Shown piece after piece: positions 388 to 17,734 of a stretch of DNA of 30,662 nt. The translations under genes were made by a program, and so were the position numbers. The stretch comes from a virus: IMG/VR virus record IMGVR_UViG_3300037323_000078, positions 1-30,662 of that record. One strand, 5' to 3'. The notes beneath the pieces were generated by a model. It was not told where the DNA came from. It did no database searches and saw only the letters and a program-made list of their open reading frames with translations. Position 1 is the first letter of the stretch. Each line of letters opens with the position of its first letter.

Positions 388-698
388 GTTCACGTAATGA
401 ACATAATGAACACTAAAACGAACACTTAAACAATTGATTGTTAGGTAGTTACGAGCAAATGAACAAAATGAACACAATTCAGAATATCTTTTACTTAATA
501 CATACGTACGCGTATAAGTATTATTTATTATATTAACAATATTATTCTTACATATATTATATATTACTATGTAGGAAGAAAAGCCTAAATCAAAAACAAT
601 ATTCAAAATTGCGTTCATTCTGTTTATTTGCTCGTAACTAATTGATTTGCAAATAGTTGCGCGTTCAAAACGTTGTTCATTATGTTCATTCCGTGAAC
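388..698. repeat. large imperfect inverted repeat with iterated AATGAACA motifs
   Basis: Two 100-base arms, 388-487 and 599-698, are inverted copies around a 111-base A+T-rich centre. The outermost 24 bases match at 23 positions, the innermost 42 at 37 (including TAGTTACGAGCAAAT, 446-460 against 640-626), and the 34 bases between them only at about 14, with identical spacing. AATGAACA or a close variant occurs four times per arm. This looks like an iteron-type or multi-site protein-binding region, possibly an origin or control region. No convincing gene lies between 316 and 836; the remaining content is a promoter at the left and a terminator at the right. Confidence 0.7.
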
Positions 699-9334: not shown

Positions 9335-10084
9335 ATGGAAGATTTAAAACAAAGATTTTTAGAAAAAGTTCAAAATTACGGTTGCAAAAATGATAGTTTA
9401 GCAGTCAATTATTTCACAAGATTAAATGCAGAATTACCAAAATCTTTTCCAGTAAAAACGTGGCAAAATATAAATTTTGATGACTTTTTATCGAAGTCAA
9501 TTGCCTATGCAAATATAGGTATAGACCCGTTGGCTCCAAAAACATTGTCTTTTACTTTGTTTGCAAATAAATTTACCGGAAAAACAGATGTGGTATTTAT
9601 TCAAGATGTAAAATGCATGGAAATTATCGCAAGAAGATATGGAGTTAATTGCCCGGTTAATATTACTGTCGAATTAATTTACTCAACGGATAAATTTGCG
9701 TTAGTAAAAAAAGATCTTACTAATCCGTCAGACGGCTACGCTTTATCAGTTACCAATGCTTTTGAACGTGGCGAAATAATTGGCGGAGTTTCATTGTCTG
9801 AGTATGAAAATCCAATCTACAATAAAGTTCGATTAATGTCGTTAAAAGAGATTGAAAAGCGTGTACGTACAACTGACAGCAAAGGCGCAGCTACATCTTT
9901 CTGGAGAGATTTTAAACCAGAAATGTGCGAAAAGACAATCGGAAAAAATGCTTGGTCAAAAGTAGCACTAGACACAACTGATTTAGCAGAATTTTATTCC
10001 GCAACAATTCAAGAAAACATTCCCGAAGAGTACATTCCAGAATCAACTGATGACTTACCTTTTGATCCAGATAATGAACTGTAG
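9335..10084 (+). CDS. recT: RecT-family single-strand annealing protein
   Basis: This 249-residue protein follows the RecT pattern. An N-terminal helical region leads to IGIDPLAPKTLSF (residues 57-69), a core with VFIQDVKCMEIIARRYG, and a C-terminal segment FWRDFKPEMCEKTIGKNAW where RecT proteins have the 'M..KTA' helix. The tail is acidic (ESTDDLPFDPDNEL). RecT anneals complementary single strands during phage recombination and replication. No classical RecE or YqaJ exonuclease is seen; the next gene, overlapping by 11 bases, encodes an MBL-fold protein, a pairing known from other phages. Confidence 0.82.
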   Translation: MEDLKQRFLEKVQNYGCKNDSLAVNYFTRLNAELPKSFPVKTWQNINFDDFLSKSIAYANIGIDPLAPKTLSFTLFANKFTGKTDVVFIQDVKCMEIIARRYGVNCPVNITVELIYSTDKFALVKKDLTNPSDGYALSVTNAFERGEIIGGVSLSEYENPIYNKVRLMSLKEIEKRVRTTDSKGAATSFWRDFKPEMCEKTIGKNAWSKVALDTTDLAEFYSATIQENIPEEYIPESTDDLPFDPDNEL

Positions 10085-10760
10085 TCTAAAAGTAATCGGA
10101 ACAGGTAGCAAAGGAAATTGCTACCTGCTTACCGTTGGCGATGAAGTTCTAGTAATCGAGGCGGGCGTAAATTTTACAGCTATAAAAAAGGCTTTAAATT
10201 TTGATTTAAGTAAGGTTGTGGGAGTTTTGATTACTCACGAACACGGCGATCATAGTTGCGCTGTTAAAGACTTTCAAAAGTTTGGTAAAGATATTTATTG
10301 TACTGTCGGAACTGCGGAAGCTCTAAAGTTAAAAGACTATAAAATTAATTTCACAAATCATTGGTATGCTGTTGGTAATTTTGCAGTTTGCCCTTTTTCT
10401 ACATTCCATGACGCTGCTGATCCATGCGGTTTTTTAATTGTATTTAACGGCAAAAGATTAGTATTTTTAACCGACAGTTCTGATCTACGAACTAAATTTG
10501 ACGATGTTGACTATTGGATCATTGAAGCCAATTATTCGAATAAAAAGTTGCAAAAATCAGGATTGGACAATAAAATAAAAAAAAGAATACAAGACACTCA
10601 CATGTCAATTGATAGGTGTAAAACTATTTTAGATTATCATAATGCAAAATTCGCAGTGCTTATTCATGCTAGTGAAAATCATGCTGATAAGAAGGAATTT
10701 ATTAAAAAAATACCGTACGCGATAGTCGCTGAGAATGGTATGGAGATTGAATTGAATTAA
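10074..10760 (+). CDS. MBL-fold metallo-hydrolase
   Basis: The 228-residue product starts at ATG 10074 (MNCSLKVIGTGSKGN), inside the end of recT. A longer in-frame start at 10050 would add residues not typical of the family. The diagnostic metal-binding motif THEHGDH lies at 54-60, with further histidines (HDAAD, IHASENH) downstream. The short N-terminal GTGSKGN strand is typical of RNase Z/YycJ-like enzymes. Close coupling to recT suggests a nuclease acting on DNA ends, possibly in place of the missing exonuclease. Confidence 0.85.
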   Translation: MNCSLKVIGTGSKGNCYLLTVGDEVLVIEAGVNFTAIKKALNFDLSKVVGVLITHEHGDHSCAVKDFQKFGKDIYCTVGTAEALKLKDYKINFTNHWYAVGNFAVCPFSTFHDAADPCGFLIVFNGKRLVFLTDSSDLRTKFDDVDYWIIEANYSNKKLQKSGLDNKIKKRIQDTHMSIDRCKTILDYHNAKFAVLIHASENHADKKEFIKKIPYAIVAENGMEIELN

Positions 10761-10776
10761 AAAAACAAAAACAGCT

Positions 10777-10800
10777 GTTATGCGATTGGCTTTTTATTTA
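10777..10800 (+). repeat. putative cassette left boundary 1
   Basis: GTTATGCG (10777-10784) is nearly the reverse complement (7 of 8) of CGAATAAC at the end of the following gene (11134-11141). After it comes TTTTTATTTA (10791-10800), which recurs in the same place after the second boundary (11270-11279). Confidence 0.4.
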
Positions 10801-10822
10801 TTAACTAATTAAATTTAAAAAT

Positions 10823-11140
10823 ATGATTACAGAGGAAAAATTTCAAGAAGCATTAAAAATTGTAAATGAATATATTTTACAATTAAATGCAGAAATAGAA
10901 AGAAAAGAAAATACAATAAAAAAAACAAAAGTAGAAGATTTTGTTTTAAAACATAGAGACAAAATAGGAAGTATAAAAGGCGTTAGAAGGCTTTTAAATT
11001 CTATGTCGGCTTATTCGGAGCATTTTCCATTTGTAGAGGATATTTTGGCAAAAGGAAAAGGTAATGTATATATTAGAGGATTTGGAGAAGAATCTTGGGA
11101 TGTTCTTCAGTTTTTGCTTTCCAACCAATCTGACGAATAA
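10823..11140 (+). CDS. hypothetical protein of putative cassette 1
   Basis: This 105-residue soluble protein has a charged helical N-terminus (residues 1-40, rich in E and K) and a C-terminal segment VYIRGFGEESWDVLQFLL. I recognise no family. Its TAA stop is part of the outer arm of the attC-like inverted repeat that follows, as often seen for integron cassette genes. It begins 62 bases after the MBL gene and may be an acquired accessory gene. Confidence 0.62.
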   Translation: MITEEKFQEALKIVNEYILQLNAEIERKENTIKKTKVEDFVLKHRDKIGSIKGVRRLLNSMSAYSEHFPFVEDILAKGKGNVYIRGFGEESWDVLQFLLSNQSDE

Positions 11141-11263
11141 CGGCTGACGCTATAAGAAGGCAGGGATTAAGATGCACACCCTTTTAGCCTTACACAAATG
11201 ATAATTAGTTGCACACCGCTTCAATTGCAGACCAAGCCCCTGCTTTTTTATAGCGTATGTTAT
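11137..11263. repeat. attC-like folded element / long inverted repeat
   Basis: Nested inverted segments pair across 127 bases: ATAAC (11137-11141) with GTTAT (11259-11263), ACGCTATAA (11147-11155) with TTATAGCGT (11248-11256), and GCAGGG (11160-11165) with CCCTGC (11238-11243). They are separated by small unpaired bulges, and the 72-base apex carries GCACACC twice. This stepwise layout resembles an integron attC site or a structured RNA. The outer boxes do not fully match the attC core GTTRRRY, so the identity is uncertain. Confidence 0.6.
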
Positions 11264-11705
11264 AGGGCGTTTTTATTTAAAAATTATGAATACTGAATTT
11301 AAAAAAAAAGTTTCTCAATTATTCCTTAAAAAAATTGACACAACTTATTTAAAGGGTTCATGTGGGGAGTTGGGAGAATCTGTCAAAACAATTGACTACG
11401 ACTACCTGAATGAACTTGTAAATGAAATAAGTGATATTGTTAGTGCTGATTATGAGCCAAAAAAATGTATCCCTGATGCTAAATATGTAAAAGATTTGGA
11501 GCATTTCAAAGATACAACTATTGGTTTATATGTAACCGACAAAGAGCCTGAACTATTATTTGAAGAAATATTTGTTCACTTAATTGAAAAAATAGGCATG
11601 GACGGAGAAAAGACATTTTCGGCGATGGATTATGATTATTATCGTGGATACTTTAACAAAGGTATAAAATTATTGATGTGGGAGATTTCTTAAATGCCCT
11701 ATAAC
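11259..11705. repeat. perfect 10-bp inverted boundaries around a single gene
   Basis: GTTATAGGGC (11259-11268) and GCCCTATAAC (11696-11705) are exact inverted copies flanking one ORF with little spare DNA on either side. In an integron cassette the first bases of the cassette are complementary to the left core of its own attC, and this arrangement shows exactly that. Confidence 0.6.
11286..11693 (+). CDS. hypothetical protein of putative cassette 2
   Basis: This 135-residue acidic soluble protein starts MNTEFKKKVSQLF, with a central SCGELGESVKTIDYDYLNEL and a C-terminal FSAMDYDYYRGYF segment. No signal peptide, membrane segment or known motif is visible. It starts 18 bases after the left boundary GTTATAGGGC and stops three bases before the matching right boundary, so it fills the bracketed unit. 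It is the last rightward gene before convergent late transcription. It is probably an accessory or defence-type moron; function unknown. Confidence 0.62.
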   Translation: MNTEFKKKVSQLFLKKIDTTYLKGSCGELGESVKTIDYDYLNELVNEISDIVSADYEPKKCIPDAKYVKDLEHFKDTTIGLYVTDKEPELLFEEIFVHLIEKIGMDGEKTFSAMDYDYYRGYFNKGIKLLMWEIS

Positions 11706-11748
11706 ATTCGTATAGGCGCAGTTTTAATTGCGCTTATACCTTGTTATA
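11699..11748. repeat. short attC-like hairpin between convergent genes
   Basis: The outer pair TATAAC (11700-11705) with GTTATA (11743-11748) encloses an 11-base stem, GTATAGGCGCA (11710-11720) with TGCGCTTATAC (11729-11739), with one G-T wobble. Its right half overlaps the 3' end of the lipoprotein gene. It could also act as a weak bidirectional terminator between convergent arms, though no T run follows. Confidence 0.5.
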
Positions 11749-12158
11749 ATCATCTTCCAATTCCAAATTATAGCAAATAGAAAAGTAAAAAATAATCCAG
11801 TAAACCAAACCCAATATGATACACCATCACTTTGGGTTTTTTTATTCTTTATTGACTTATAAGTAGTAAGCGTTTTATAAATTGTTGCTAGTTTATATCT
11901 TACTGAATCAACTATTTTTAACTTACTAACCTCTTTATTGTTTTGAGTAAAAGTTTCCTTTAAACCGTCTTTTTCTCTTGTGTAAACGAAACCTTTGTCA
12001 TTGTTGTATTCTCGATACAACATTTTAAAATCAGATAAATCTATAAGCGAGCTTGTGTCTACTAATTTTATTTTTTCTACTTCTTTAATTTGCTCTGTTT
12101 TTCTAGTACCGCATCCAACCACTAATGCCACCAAAAAGATACCAACTAATTTTTTCAT
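11724..12158 (-). CDS. u-spanin-like lipoprotein (lysis)
   Basis: This 144-residue protein has a lipoprotein signal peptide with lipobox VVGC (lipidated Cys16). A helical, charged periplasmic region (residues 20-112) follows, then a hydrophobic segment at about 115-134 (rich in W and F) and a basic tail RYKRN. An outer-membrane lipid anchor at one end and an inner-membrane helix at the other is the design of unimolecular spanins, which fuse the two membranes in the last step of lysis. Position next to the endolysin supports this. It is the last leftward late gene and ends convergent with the rightward arm. Confidence 0.65.
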   Translation of the reverse strand: MKKLVGIFLVALVVGCGTRKTEQIKEVEKIKLVDTSSLIDLSDFKMLYREYNNDKGFVYTREKDGLKETFTQNNKEVSKLKIVDSVRYKLATIYKTLTTYKSIKNKKTQSDGVSYWVWFTGLFFTFLFAIIWNWKMIITRYKRN

Positions 12159-12198: not shown

Positions 12199-12633
12199 TT
12201 ACGTGCCAAAGTATTGTTTAACCTCTGACTTTCTACGTCCTATTAATTCTTTGTCTTTTGTCCACATCATAATAGCTGCTGCTATTTTAGGGTCATTTGG
12301 ATTTATATTGACTAGTTTTAAAAATGTAGAACTAGAGAATCCTTTCTTTCCAATATTATATGCAATTGAAACAAGTGCATTAAATTGGTCCTGATTAACT
12401 GCTGATGTTACTTTGCTGTTTACATACTTGCCAAAATCATCAGCAACAAATAAACTTAATTTATTAGCTTCTTTTAAACAAAGTGACGCATCGCTCATCT
12501 TTACGCTTCTGCCATCCAAGTAATAAGTGTTGCCCATTGCAATAGTGGGTATTCCTTTAGTATCCAAATATGGCTTTAATCTTAATCCTTCTCTTAAATG
12601 TAAAGCTGTCAATCCCTTGTCATTTACTCTCAT
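12199..12633 (-). CDS. GH24-family endolysin (T4-type lysozyme)
   Basis: This 144-residue endolysin has the catalytic triad spacing of GH24: Glu15 (LREG), Asp24 (LDTKG) and Thr30, exactly E-x8-D-x5-T. It cleaves the MurNAc-GlcNAc bond of peptidoglycan. The start at 12633 is preferred because it makes a four-base ATGA overlap with the upstream gene. A longer reading to 12657 needs a TTG start and adds only eight residues. There is no signal peptide, so export depends on the holin. An A9G run just upstream could allow frameshift fusion to the preceding membrane protein. Confidence 0.85.
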   Translation of the reverse strand: MRVNDKGLTALHLREGLRLKPYLDTKGIPTIAMGNTYYLDGRSVKMSDASLCLKEANKLSLFVADDFGKYVNSKVTSAVNQDQFNALVSIAYNIGKKGFSSSTFLKLVNINPNDPKIAAAIMMWTKDKELIGRRKSEVKQYFGT

Positions 12634-12944
12634 ATCTTTTTTTTTAAACCGTTGCAAATACTTTGTAGGTCTTTATATTTTTTTTCTAAATCTCTAAACT
12701 TTTTTTCCCAAGCTTCTGAACTTTCAAGCAAAGTTAAATTTATCGATTCTAATTTTTCTAGCCGATTAAGCAACTTTTTATATTGCAAATCCTGATCTTT
12801 AATCCAAGAGTTATAGTTTTCCCGCATTGCCGTTGAAGCGTCAGACTGCTCTTTTTTTTCTGCAATATTACTTGTTCTTCGCCCAGTAATAAATAAAATT
12901 ATTCCTGTAAATATAGCCCCAATTATTTGAATAGTATCCTGCAT
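12630..12944 (-). CDS. membrane-anchored coiled-coil protein of the lysis cassette
   Basis: This 104-residue protein has one N-terminal membrane helix (about residues 5-21, IQIIGAIFTGIILFITG) followed by a long charged helix with coiled-coil character to the C-terminus (KLLNRLEKLESINL, then KKFRDLEKKYKDLQ). This is the shape of an inner-membrane spanin or an accessory lysis protein. It lies between holin and endolysin, stops inside the endolysin start codon, and ends with an A-rich slippery run. A terminator-like hairpin precedes it by 16 bases. Confidence 0.7.
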   Translation of the reverse strand: MQDTIQIIGAIFTGIILFITGRRTSNIAEKKEQSDASTAMRENYNSWIKDQDLQYKKLLNRLEKLESINLTLLESSEAWEKKFRDLEKKYKDLQSICNGLKKKI

Positions 12945-13171: not shown

Positions 13172-15661
13172 TTAATTATATACTCTTATTTCTATTGAGG
13201 TGCTTTGTATTCTACCATCAAAAGGAGTGCTACCAAACCATGATGTTACAGCAATTATGTCTGAATCAAATCTACTTGCACCAATTTGATCTTCATAAGA
13301 AGCAACCGATTGTGATGTTACAACAAAAGTTTTATTTAAAGTAAATGCAGAAGATAATGTGCCAGCATAAACTCCTGCTGTGCTTCTTGTCCATACAACC
13401 GTACCTCCCAAAGTATTTTCTAAAACAGTAGCTACAGGCGCACTTGAACCTGTTTGAGTTAATAAAGCAACGTATATTTTATAGGGTTTTATTGCTTGAA
13501 CAAAAGCTGTTGTAGCTATTTGAGTGGTATTTGTTCCTGTTGCTGCCGTTGGTGCTGTTGGTGTACCTGTCAATGCTGCTGAACCGTTGAATGAGGTTGC
13601 TGATACTGTCCCGCTAAACTTACCATTACCTACTACGTCAATGTTTGCTGTTGGGTTGGGTTGGTTTATTCCTACAAAGCCGTTAGGTAATTCAGTGACA
13701 TTGCTATCCACAATAGATTTACTTCCTCCAAATTTAGAAAGTTTATTTACTGTTCCAAAACCGCCGATTTTATCATTTAATAAAAGGTCAACTTGTGATT
13801 TAATAACTAACTGTGATGGATTTACTGCTGCAACTGATGTGGGCTGCTTTAAAAAATTTATATTTTGATAGAAAGTTCCTTGATTAGACGTGTTGTTTAT
13901 GTTAAAATATGGAATATTGTTAACGGCATTTTGAATAAAAAAACCTGAGCCAATTTGAGCTAATAACATACTACTACTTGCGCTTGTTAGTTGCAACACC
14001 CCTGCCCCACTATCGCCTTTTATTTCAGCTTCTTTTTTAAATAAATATTTGTTGTCTGCATTTATAACTAGGTTATTTATTATGGTATTGCCCGTAATCT
14101 TATTTCCAAAAAACAATATATCTTTTGTGTTTAAAAAACCATAATTTACAGTGCCGCAATCGTCAAAAACATTAGATGTTATTGATTGCTTATTCATTTG
14201 CCAAGTTTGATTTATGCCTATATCATTGGAAATTTTAGAATAGTTTTTAAAATAATTACCTGTAACTATTACTCTTTCATTATCTCCATAAGGTTCACTG
14301 GCTTGTGCAGTAAAATCATAACAGTACGCTAATCCACTTCCCTCAAAATAATTGCCAGAAACTATAAGCTTGCCAGCGTTCCAAGATTGTTCTATAACCG
14401 CTAAGGAATGCCCAGTTAAAGTTGGGTCTAAAATATTAGTTTCAAACGCATGATTTCCGATTACTGAACTACCCATAAAAGTTTCGCCCAAAACAGCAGC
14501 GGGCGAGCTTAAATGAAAAAAAGACCCATTTAAAGCTCTAGCATAATTATTTACTATCTTAACTCCCTGACCTACTATGTTTTCATTAGGTATGTTAATA
14601 AAAGTGCAATTTTCTATTATTGAACCAAAACCAAAAATATTTATAGAAGTATTAAAATACCAAAAATAATTCGCTGTATTATTCGCTTTATTGCCGTCAA
14701 TATTTAGCTCTAAAATTTTTGCAACTCCTGGTGTTGGATACTGCCTTGTTTCAATTAAATTATATACCTTTCTAATATTAAAACCAGCATTATAATCCCT
14801 TTCTGGACCTTCTATAAAAGATCCTATTCTAAAATCTAAAGTAATTAAATTTCCATTTATTGCCGTTATCTTTCTTTTAGTAGTTGTATTCAATCGCCCA
14901 TTCCCATTATATAAATGCACTTCGTCCCCTAATTTCCAGTCGTTTGGAATTGCATTTATACTTAATGAAGTACTAAAACTATTTGCATCGTTTAATAAAG
15001 TACTTTTGCTTTCGTTTCCTCTTTTTAAAGTTGCCGAATTTCCATATATAGTTTGATTGTCTTTTAAATTTAATTGATTTTTTATTAAATAATTCCCTTT
15101 GTTAAAATCAATAATACCTCCGATTCCTGCTGCATCAATAGCGTTTTGAATCTGCAATGACTCATCGATAATTCCAAAACCTAAAGCCCCAAAGTCTTTA
15201 ACGTTAACCCTATTTTTGGTTTGCTTACCGTCCAAACTTGTTTGTAAATCTGTTACAGTTGAAATTGCTTGTACGCCCGTATGCGTGGTTCTATCTCGTA
15301 GCTGTGCATCTGTGCTATTTGCTGTTGCGCCTGTAGCTACACTGTTTAATTTTACCTTATCACTTGCATTCAGCAAGCCCGCTTCTGTTGTCGTTGCTTG
15401 AGGGACTACGGGACCGCTACCCGTAGAACTAAGTAATTGAAAAGTGTTCGCATTTTTATTTCCAATACTAATATTAGTATTCAGCGTACTTTTTAGAATA
15501 AATCCTAATTCTTTTGTCGTTGCGTCTTGAACGGTTACCCTAGTTGCGGATGATTTTTCAGTTGCGTTTGTCAATAAAATATTCTCAATTGGCGTTGCAT
15601 CCGCACTTTGAGAAATTGCCAAATATGGCAAAATAAGTAATAATAAAAGTAATTTTTTCAT
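13172..15661 (-). CDS. tail fibre/tailspike-like protein with right-handed beta-helix and signal peptide
   Basis: This 829-residue protein begins with a textbook Sec signal peptide (MKKLLLLLLILPYLAIS, with a Q after the likely cut). A fibre-like region full of TTATTEAG-type turns follows, then VNVKDFGALGFG, which opens a pectate-lyase-type beta-helix (about residues 150-560, with repeated N-G-N turns). The C-terminal part holds the tail-fibre repeat GTPTAPTAATGTNTTQIA. Such proteins bind or cleave host surface glycans. The signal peptide is odd, since virion proteins assemble in the cytoplasm. It is encoded between structural and lysis genes. Confidence 0.75.
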   Translation of the reverse strand: MKKLLLLLLILPYLAISQSADATPIENILLTNATEKSSATRVTVQDATTKELGFILKSTLNTNISIGNKNANTFQLLSSTGSGPVVPQATTTEAGLLNASDKVKLNSVATGATANSTDAQLRDRTTHTGVQAISTVTDLQTSLDGKQTKNRVNVKDFGALGFGIIDESLQIQNAIDAAGIGGIIDFNKGNYLIKNQLNLKDNQTIYGNSATLKRGNESKSTLLNDANSFSTSLSINAIPNDWKLGDEVHLYNGNGRLNTTTKRKITAINGNLITLDFRIGSFIEGPERDYNAGFNIRKVYNLIETRQYPTPGVAKILELNIDGNKANNTANYFWYFNTSINIFGFGSIIENCTFINIPNENIVGQGVKIVNNYARALNGSFFHLSSPAAVLGETFMGSSVIGNHAFETNILDPTLTGHSLAVIEQSWNAGKLIVSGNYFEGSGLAYCYDFTAQASEPYGDNERVIVTGNYFKNYSKISNDIGINQTWQMNKQSITSNVFDDCGTVNYGFLNTKDILFFGNKITGNTIINNLVINADNKYLFKKEAEIKGDSGAGVLQLTSASSSMLLAQIGSGFFIQNAVNNIPYFNINNTSNQGTFYQNINFLKQPTSVAAVNPSQLVIKSQVDLLLNDKIGGFGTVNKLSKFGGSKSIVDSNVTELPNGFVGINQPNPTANIDVVGNGKFSGTVSATSFNGSAALTGTPTAPTAATGTNTTQIATTAFVQAIKPYKIYVALLTQTGSSAPVATVLENTLGGTVVWTRSTAGVYAGTLSSAFTLNKTFVVTSQSVASYEDQIGASRFDSDIIAVTSWFGSTPFDGRIQSTSIEIRVYN

Positions 15662-16632: not shown

Positions 16633-17734
16633 TTTCTGGTGATGTTTTTGAAACAATTACTTTTTCCTGACCAAAATTTACAAAGTCAATATCACAATTA
16701 GGATTTATTTTTTTAAATATTAAATTAAAATCGTCCAGCAATATCTCACGCAATGGATTAATAGTTCCTAAATATAAAGAATCTGTAGCCATGGCTATCT
16801 CGTCAGCATTGCTACTAAAACCGCTACTTCCGGGTCTTGAAAATAAAATATTCATTGCTTGGTGTGCGGCCATCAACTTAAACTCTGCCGTCTCGTCATA
16901 AGTGACAAACTGCTCGTTTCTGCCACGTGGTTCGATTGTATCAATTATGATTGCATCTTGTGGACCATCATTCAAGGATATTATTACACCGTCACCATTT
17001 TTTGTGCCGATATAATCTTCTTTAACCTTTGTTTTAATATCCTCTTCTTCTTCCTTTAAAATCATCCCCGCATTATTGACGTTAATGATTGTTTTGCCTT
17101 GGAAACCTCGCGTAATATGATTAACGGCGTCATCAATTAATGCGCTTTCAATTTGAGCGCTTTTAAACCCACTAAACCAATCAGGGAAAGGGAAAAAAGG
17201 CTCAGACGATAAAGTTTTAATGTGAATTATTTCAATTGCATTTTCGTTTGTATGCCTTGAGAACTTAGGCACAAATGAAGGCACAAACTTTGTCTTTTCG
17301 GTATAATCAAATGAATACCAGTAGCCTGTGACGTCCATGTAGTCAGAACTCTTTTTATTTATGTCAATCTGCAGACCAACTCTAACAGTGGGTGTATGCT
17401 TGATTTTAATTGGTTTACCCGCAAGGTTTATGACCTGGGGGAATGCGCTTCCGTCTCGCTTAAAATCAAGGCAAATCATTCTAAGATCAGCTTTACTGAT
17501 AAAATCATGCGGGTTTAAAGATCCGCTTTTGTCAATTAATCCATTACCTACAATATAATTGACAATTGTCTTAATTATAAATGCATTGGTCGGGCTGTCA
17601 TCATACGAGTCGCGATACTTCTTAAAGTTATTGTTATTCTCTCCGTTTAAAGTGTATTTTTGCGCTAAATTTGCCTTAGTAATGCCTTTATCGTATGCTG
17701 AATGTTCGGTATATGATACTCTTTTATTAGCCAT
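16625..17734 (-). CDS. portal protein
   Basis: This 369-residue protein has a portal-like layout: an N-terminal NAFIIKTIVNYIVGNG segment, a beta-rich middle with repeated PxVRVGLQ-type strands, and a helical C-terminal part (ETAEFKLMAAHQAMNILFSRPGSSG, then SLYLGTINPLREILLDDFN) like the stem/crown and clip helices of SPP1/HK97-type portals. The dodecameric portal is the DNA channel of the capsid. It is shorter than many portals (400-500). Unusually, its gene lies downstream of the major capsid gene. It starts one base before the stop of a small virion gene upstream. Confidence 0.62.
   Translation of the reverse strand: MANKRVSYTEHSAYDKGITKANLAQKYTLNGENNNNFKKYRDSYDDSPTNAFIIKTIVNYIVGNGLIDKSGSLNPHDFISKADLRMICLDFKRDGSAFPQVINLAGKPIKIKHTPTVRVGLQIDINKKSSDYMDVTGYWYSFDYTEKTKFVPSFVPKFSRHTNENAIEIIHIKTLSSEPFFPFPDWFSGFKSAQIESALIDDAVNHITRGFQGKTIINVNNAGMILKEEEEDIKTKVKEDYIGTKNGDGVIISLNDGPQDAIIIDTIEPRGRNEQFVTYDETAEFKLMAAHQAMNILFSRPGSSGFSSNADEIAMATDSLYLGTINPLREILLDDFNLIFKKINPNCDIDFVNFGQEKVIVSKTSPENE

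Follow-up and report, generated by a model that had tools for sequence, protein, structure and literature searches.

Integrons, the IntI/attI/attC systems that include the sedentary chromosomal ones, carry single-gene cassettes with one folded site each, which are co-directional in chromosomes. Their site core begins with GTT, the recombinase gene adjoins the array, and R'/R'' complementarity belongs to the circular cassette. The system described here shares all of these traits. It differs in that its recombinase lacks the IntI-specific insertion, in that an outer stem of 14 individually matched bases stands in place of the 7-base GTTRRRY, in the constant mismatch at position 11 of that stem, and in the transcription of the recombinase towards the array in the chromosomal arrays examined. 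Reviews place Bacteroidota among the integron-bearing phyla. In the portion of PMC8138268 available to us, the insertion is described as essential for integron function, and an "integron-like" subgroup of tyrosine recombinases is said to include insertion-less members. That portion gives no substrate for those members; here, by contrast, insertion-less recombinases are tied to cassette arrays.

Phages have also been drawn into this picture. Qi et al. (2023, PMC9892861) described integrase-less phage arrays and methyltransferase cassettes, and found that attC2 of Polaribacter phage P12002L is active with IntI1 in E. coli. The arrays reported here resemble these in being phage-borne without an integrase and in their methyltransferase cassettes. 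However, a recombinase from a phage clade adjoins them in 27 viral loci, their genes are inverted relative to the site, and they were found with a model of our own rather than with IntegronFinder/HattCI.

Two further reports concern resistance genes. The accessible part of PMC7473080 notes the adjacency of xerD and tet(X) in Flavobacteriaceae and Acinetobacter without a mechanism. The accessible part of PMC13148043 reports that Riemerella aph(3')-IVb, together with flanks of 27 bp before and 140 bp after it, integrates independently of homology during transformation, and that the 140 bp downstream fold like an attC. Neither of these parts names a recombinase-plus-attC system or a link to phages. 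The pairing of recombinase and site reported below is likewise not described in the literature searched, a search with most subscription journals and preprints outside its scope.

A short array beside a phage lysozyme gene

The window, by which we mean the whole stretch of 30,662 nucleotides that was analyzed, is an IMG/VR virus record (30.7 kb) with portal, lysozyme, RecT, and other phage genes, and it represents a Bacteroidota-phage contig. Its array interval lies between a metallo-beta-lactamase-fold gene on the plus strand and the convergent 144-aa and lysozyme genes on the minus strand, and contains two genes without known function and two hairpins (Table 1). The second hairpin overlaps the 3' end of the 144-aa gene.

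Table 1. Positions of the array, its cassettes and its neighboring genes in the window
Feature	Positions	Strand	Remarks
Metallo-beta-lactamase-fold gene	10050..10760	+	Pfam Lactamase_B_2; 91% identical in L002; conserved phage gene at the array's left (distal) edge, with other genes next to it in L002
Array left edge, GTTATGCGATTGGC	10777..10790	+	3/6 variable bases match the cassette 1 end
Cassette 1 gene, 105 aa, function not assigned	10823..11140	+	Stop codon within the TAAC of attC-like site 1
attC-like site 1, 125 nt, TAAC...GTTA	11138..11262	+	R1 75.3 bits, E 8e-15
Cassette 2 start, GTTATAGGGCGTTT	11259..11272	+	10/10 complement of 11696-11705
Cassette 2 gene, 135 aa, function not assigned	11286..11693	+	Phage L155 has a homologue among its cassette genes
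Cassette 2 end, AAATGCCCTATAAC, R'' side	11692..11705	+	Pairs with the cassette 2 start
Short attC-like site 2	11702..11746	+	Fold z -3.75; pattern matches
144-aa gene adjoining lysozyme, putatively spanin-like	11724..12158	-	Conserved in L002
Phage lysozyme	12199..12657	-	Pfam Phage_lysozyme

Neither cassette gene resembles a known family. The cassette 1 gene had no match in Pfam or PHROG and no homologue in viral contigs; the cassette 2 gene had no Pfam or PHROG match and no relative in viral contigs by protein search; and no relatives of either turned up in 299 genomes, in a search run without a positive control. A homologue of the cassette 2 gene was spotted by eye among the cassette genes of phage L155 and then checked by BLASTP (E 3e-10 over 57 aa, 30% identity, with GSCGELG in common). 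At the DNA level, comparison of the whole interval with phage and plasmid records gave chance matches only, and Rfam holds no family for the attC-like site.

An earlier note on this DNA had proposed two attC-like folded elements, with the stop codon of the first gene inside one of them. Both elements were borne out, and the TAA at 11138-11140 does lie within the opening TAAC. Site 1 folds into a long stem whose z is only -1.5 against shuffled sequences because its loop is long, and it is a strong member of the structural family described below, of whose 21 seed sequences it is also one. Site 2 folds far better than its shuffles (0/200 as good). The note's shared 10-mer after both left boundaries, TTTTTATTTA, is likewise present at 10791 and 11270, with one further copy at 17352. 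Elsewhere in the window (448-638), a long inverted pair, GTTACGAGCAAATG...TATTTGCTCGTAAC, stands 187 bp apart without a matching array context.

Cassette ends match across the gene

In cassette 2, GTTATAGGGC (from 11259) is complementary at 10/10 bases to GCCCTATAAC (up to 11705), and the longer ends comprise ten base pairs, a single G-against-T mismatch, and three more base pairs. In cassette 1, the start GTTATGCGAT and the reverse complement of the end GTTATTCGTC agree at three of six variable positions. The claim that both genes are bracketed by inverted repeats therefore stood for cassette 2 and fell for cassette 1, whose reported 7-of-8 match does not extend. A matched left end for cassette 1 (10777 against 11141) was rejected on this count, and 10777 may at best be an eroded or exchanged distal cassette end rather than the matched partner of 11141.

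The same pairing was examined at consecutive sites in other loci by comparing each cassette start with the cassette's own end and with the other half of its own site. With three sets pooled, the six variable bases agreed perfectly in 78 of 153 intervals within the cassette and in 0 of 215 comparisons within one site. The first loci contributed 26/58 versus 0/82, the 15 phage contigs retrieved by single attC patterns 18/35 versus 0/53, and the viral loci with a recombinase 34/60 versus 0/80. Per-position agreement in the 58 first intervals was about 0.6 to 0.8 within the cassette and about 0.3 to 0.4 within the site. At position 11, agreement drops to 0 to 5% of cases, the start usually having G and its partner T; past this mismatch three bases pair again, and then pairing falls away. 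The covariance model R1 (see below) was built partly from elements chosen by end complementarity; 39 of the first 58 intervals, and the 35- and 60-interval sets, do not come from its seed loci.

The full rule, as taken from other loci (GTTR, 6 bases, G/A at position 11, two of the three next bases, and a hairpin after), has exactly one match in the window, at 11259/11702, compared with 0.007 per strand in Markov sequences. The cores keep GTTR and leave the next bases free (GTTATAG in the window), in agreement with the remark of the earlier note that they do not fully match GTTRRRY. To judge from these comparisons, the end rule is what a circular cassette leaves behind when it is opened within a folded site: the cassettes are bounded by folded attC-like sites, and R'/R'' pairing is proper to the cassette circle rather than to the site as it stands in the array.

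This pattern bears directly on a simpler reading, in which the hairpins are only terminators around accessory genes (morons), and ordinary homologous recombination exchanges these genes from phage to phage. Phages often carry accessory genes with terminators, the second hairpin of the window is stable, and the cassette starts are T-rich. A hairpin followed by a run of T, however, requires pairing confined to that hairpin, whereas here the outer bases pair and covary across the gene, hundreds of bases apart. Also, the same sites form long arrays adjoining a recombinase in chromosomes. Because the ends covary with the cassette, the terminator reading is strongly disfavored and we regard it as highly unlikely, even though the window and a close relative have in common the flanks that homologous exchange needs.

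A close phage with other genes at the same position

That relative, phage L002, provides a natural experiment. Its metallo-beta-lactamase gene is 91% identical to that of the window, and the 144-aa gene is almost the same in both. Between these conserved flanks, at the position of the window's array, L002 carries two genes (62 and 91 aa) that are quite unlike those of the window. The last hairpin is the same in both phages. The bases outside it differ, and in L002 they match the start of that phage's own last gene segment, giving the matched ends GTTATCTGTAG ... (A)TTACAGATAAC. To judge from this comparison, gene and ends were exchanged as one unit. The earlier note had suggested looking for phages in which the 10777-11705 interval is absent at these exact boundaries; L002 has other genes there. 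Neither of the two results by which the note would have been refuted turned up, and one of them, that the elements serve as terminators with no link to gene content, does not agree with ends that covary with the cassette.

The short site 2, common to the window and L002, appears as a constant proximal (anchor) site and recurs in L004-L006. Given the polarity of chromosomal arrays and the constancy of this site, the proximal end of the window's array is probably the short site and the distal end the poorly matched left edge.

A family of folded sites in phages and Flavobacteriaceae

Related phage loci, found via the lysozyme gene, carry arrays too (L004, L006, L008, L016, L019, L022, L030, and L037), and in nine related phages (the window, L002, L008, L016, L019, L022, L028, L030, and L037) the array adjoins the lysozyme gene within a few kilobases. 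Twenty-one long elements, including that of the window, align over 132 columns with an invariant TAAC...GTTA, and 16 of 22 stem pairs in this alignment (the inner stem) show compensatory changes. R1, the covariance model made from these 21 sites, recovers its seeds and finds additional sites. It has at least one match (E up to 1e-4) in 142 of 199 genomes from the family of one Flavobacterium strain taken as the center of the sample, as well as in dozens of phage contigs, and no match in 105 kb of unrelated, partly AT-rich DNA. Arrays in which the same elements separate different genes without known function, which the earlier note had proposed to look for, are thus widespread. Several intervals of Polaribacter phage P12002L obey the end rule and yet R1 has no match there, so R1 misses some site types.

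The arrays display several further features. In L004 and L006, two units stand in tandem. Both units have a left site, and they have one short right site in common (CGTATA(A/G)GCGC...GCGCTTATACCTTGTTATA), a layout that looks like duplication of a segment bearing an array. In several phage arrays (L019, L022, and L107), an open reading frame starts inside the site and crosses G/TTA (e.g., MKVQNSNSVKPDTQSCQTAV... in L022), and so the N-terminus could come from the upstream site. DNA methyltransferases recur as cassette cargo (L022:2628-3395, L053:2755-4047, L107:8244-8963, and L219:29248-32126), in phages and, in L053, with an adjacent gene without known function, hinting at a trade in defense and counter-defense.

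An insertion-less recombinase adjoins arrays in chromosomes and a plasmid

The earlier note had reported that no integron integrase is present. This holds for the window, where no tyrosine recombinase was found, and for the first 11 array phages checked, which also had none. For the system as a whole it does not, since arrays elsewhere adjoin a dedicated IntI-related recombinase. At locus L053, the gene for the tyrosine recombinase P0001 is followed by direct and inverted repeats, then by a cassette whose matched ends enclose a methyltransferase gene and one more gene, and then by a site. In genome G132, a 310-aa recombinase precedes a stretch of about 16 kb in which sites separate over a dozen genes without known function, all pointing the same way; genome G164 has a similar array and recombinase, and a Chryseobacterium plasmid (L112, NZ_CP041688.1, 13974-24096) carries both as well. 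The repeats between the L053 recombinase and its first cassette, and an inverted repeat in the plasmid, are at most candidates for an attI. Also in the plasmid, an inverted GTTGGGAAAAATCG...CGATTTTTCCCAAC recurs near 15122, 17217, 19598, and 22670, each time followed by the same GGCCAGCTCGGCTTCGCC, and may be a second site type.

Recombinases and sites occur together more often than expected. Among the sites listed, 17 of 58 recombinase genes lie no more than 15 kb from one, against about 1.1 expected. Across the 199 genomes, the two-by-two table of site and recombinase occurrence reads 111/31/15/42 (Fisher p 1e-11, uncorrected for relatedness or genome size).

These enzymes approach known models without reaching their cut-offs. 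Against the integron integrase model TIGR02249 (cut-off 265), recombinases scored 211 and 196 bits, with the alignment gap falling exactly at the extra region of IntI, and P0001 scored 214.6 bits on NCBIfam NF040815 (cut-off 220). Aligned with two IntI proteins, the recombinases are some 30 to 40 residues short at the IntI insertion, which is missing in all aligned chromosomal and plasmid homologues and, by inspection, in the phage ones.

The absence of the insertion matters for the view that the window holds an ordinary CALIN, a cluster of attC lacking integrase, with cassettes that a classical IntI had captured. With two attC-like sites and zero tyrosine recombinases, the window might be taken for a CALIN, and such clusters are known in phages, including the Polaribacter phage, where the end rule also appears; one of two tested attC sites recombined with attI1 via IntI1 (PMC9892861). 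Yet an IntI model found no protein over its cut-off in five array-bearing genomes, the enzymes adjoining arrays lack the IntI insertion, and the cores are GTTR followed by free bases rather than GTTRRRY. Capture by a classical IntI seems to us quite improbable.

HUH-type enzymes use hairpin ends, and the hairpin ends seen here would suit single-strand transposition by IS200/IS605 or REP-associated HUH enzymes. A fixed recognition sequence, however, does not predict ends that are matched individually for each cassette, and where array neighborhoods were examined, the gene close by encodes a tyrosine recombinase, which makes movement by HUH enzymes extremely improbable in our view.

Phage recombinases and inverted cassette genes

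A search of viral contigs with an alignment of the recombinase gave 80 loci. Sites were found in 27 of these, 91 upstream and 2 downstream of the recombinase gene, all on the recombinase strand. The other 53 loci had no array in reach. The recombinase-bearing phages L010, L015, and L023 had no R1 sites in the stretches searched. Phage recombinases are compact, at about 266 aa, and one of the contigs, L209, is a phage with a head maturation protease. In a phylogenetic tree, the sampled array-linked phage enzymes form a clade of their own (92/97), with L185 apart from it, and a clade beside it holds most chromosomal and plasmid enzymes (93/94). L052 and the tet(X3)-linked enzyme are unplaced; IntI is separate, its placement being weak and some branches long.

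Gene orientation also separates the two groups. In bacterial cassettes (chromosomes and plasmid), the gene lies opposite to the R1 strand in 41 of 42 intervals, whereas in phage cassettes it lies on the R1 strand in 10/10, 34/35, and 56/60 intervals (100/105 in total, versus 1/42 in bacteria). Bacterial arrays are therefore unlikely to be the usual source of phage cassettes, and the earlier suggestion that the window's cassettes were acquired from the host is unlikely as stated; the orientation points to a phage pool instead.

A possible link to tet(X)

The recombinase family reaches a known resistance gene. In an Acinetobacter plasmid (L116:3001-5130, NZ_CP060813.1), tet(X3) follows a truncated recombinase related to P0001; this xerD-like gene and P0001 share 48% identity. 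The ends of tet(X3) resemble those of a cassette, and past its stop codon the sequence begins like an attC. On the two sides of tet(X3) stand GTTATGTGCCATTTTT and AAAAACGGCTACTAAC; these agree with the outer part of the rule (the position-11 mismatch, then TTTTT) and not with bases 5-7. These features suggest that tet(X3) may have been a cassette of this integron-like system.

A proposed model for cassette exchange

We consider it very likely, on the strength of sequence comparisons, that the array interval of the window is a short integron-like array whose cassettes are joined at folded sites by an IntI-related, insertion-less recombinase acting in trans. The reading of the earlier note, in which single-gene cassettes lie between folded attC-like sites, is supported by the arrays, by L002, and by the covariation of the ends. 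In the proposed model, each cassette would consist of one gene and one attC-like site. In the circular cassette, the site would be a hairpin whose outer stem arises from pairing between the two ends of that cassette (GTTR, 6 bases, one conserved mismatch, and 3 bases). A small asymmetric internal loop would follow, and beyond it an inner stem with a variable loop. The IntI-related tyrosine recombinase without the IntI insertion would join the site of the circle to a site in the array, with exchange at or near G|TTR. Such an exchange would separate the ends of neighboring cassettes and keep complementarity within each cassette.

In the window, the fixed site would be the short hairpin at 11702-11746, where the 144-aa gene close to lysozyme has its 3' end; cassettes would be added next to this hairpin and would erode at the opposite edge, near 10777. 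A chromosomal integron of the host, a co-resident phage, or a part of the phage outside the contig would supply the recombinase. From the arrays and their ends, we infer that recombination takes place, that single strands fold, which strand is chosen, where crossover falls, and that an enzyme of this family serves the window's phage. The system appears to work like an integron, and "phage-associated variant of integron" is the best label for it; we call it a variant because it departs from integrons in both the GTTRRRY core and the IntI insertion.

Implications

More broadly, we think it probable, with less confidence than for the window itself, that Bacteroidota and their phages have a separate kind of integron, served by an insertion-less recombinase. 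Phages would have their own recombinase clade and an inverted cassette pool, with phage operons growing from the 3' end (beside the lysis genes in the window's group), and the bacterial form would have helped to mobilize resistance genes such as tet(X).

If insertion-less recombinases move cassettes, then the structure taken to define integron integrases is not required for this activity, and searches that demand the insertion may miss a system present in most of the sampled Flavobacteriaceae-family genomes. The matched ends with their fixed mismatch would be a testable rule for predicting cassettes. The system also offers a testable mechanism for the association of xerD with tet(X), whose meaning the literature leaves open. 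Finally, phages would gain a precise way to trade accessory genes.
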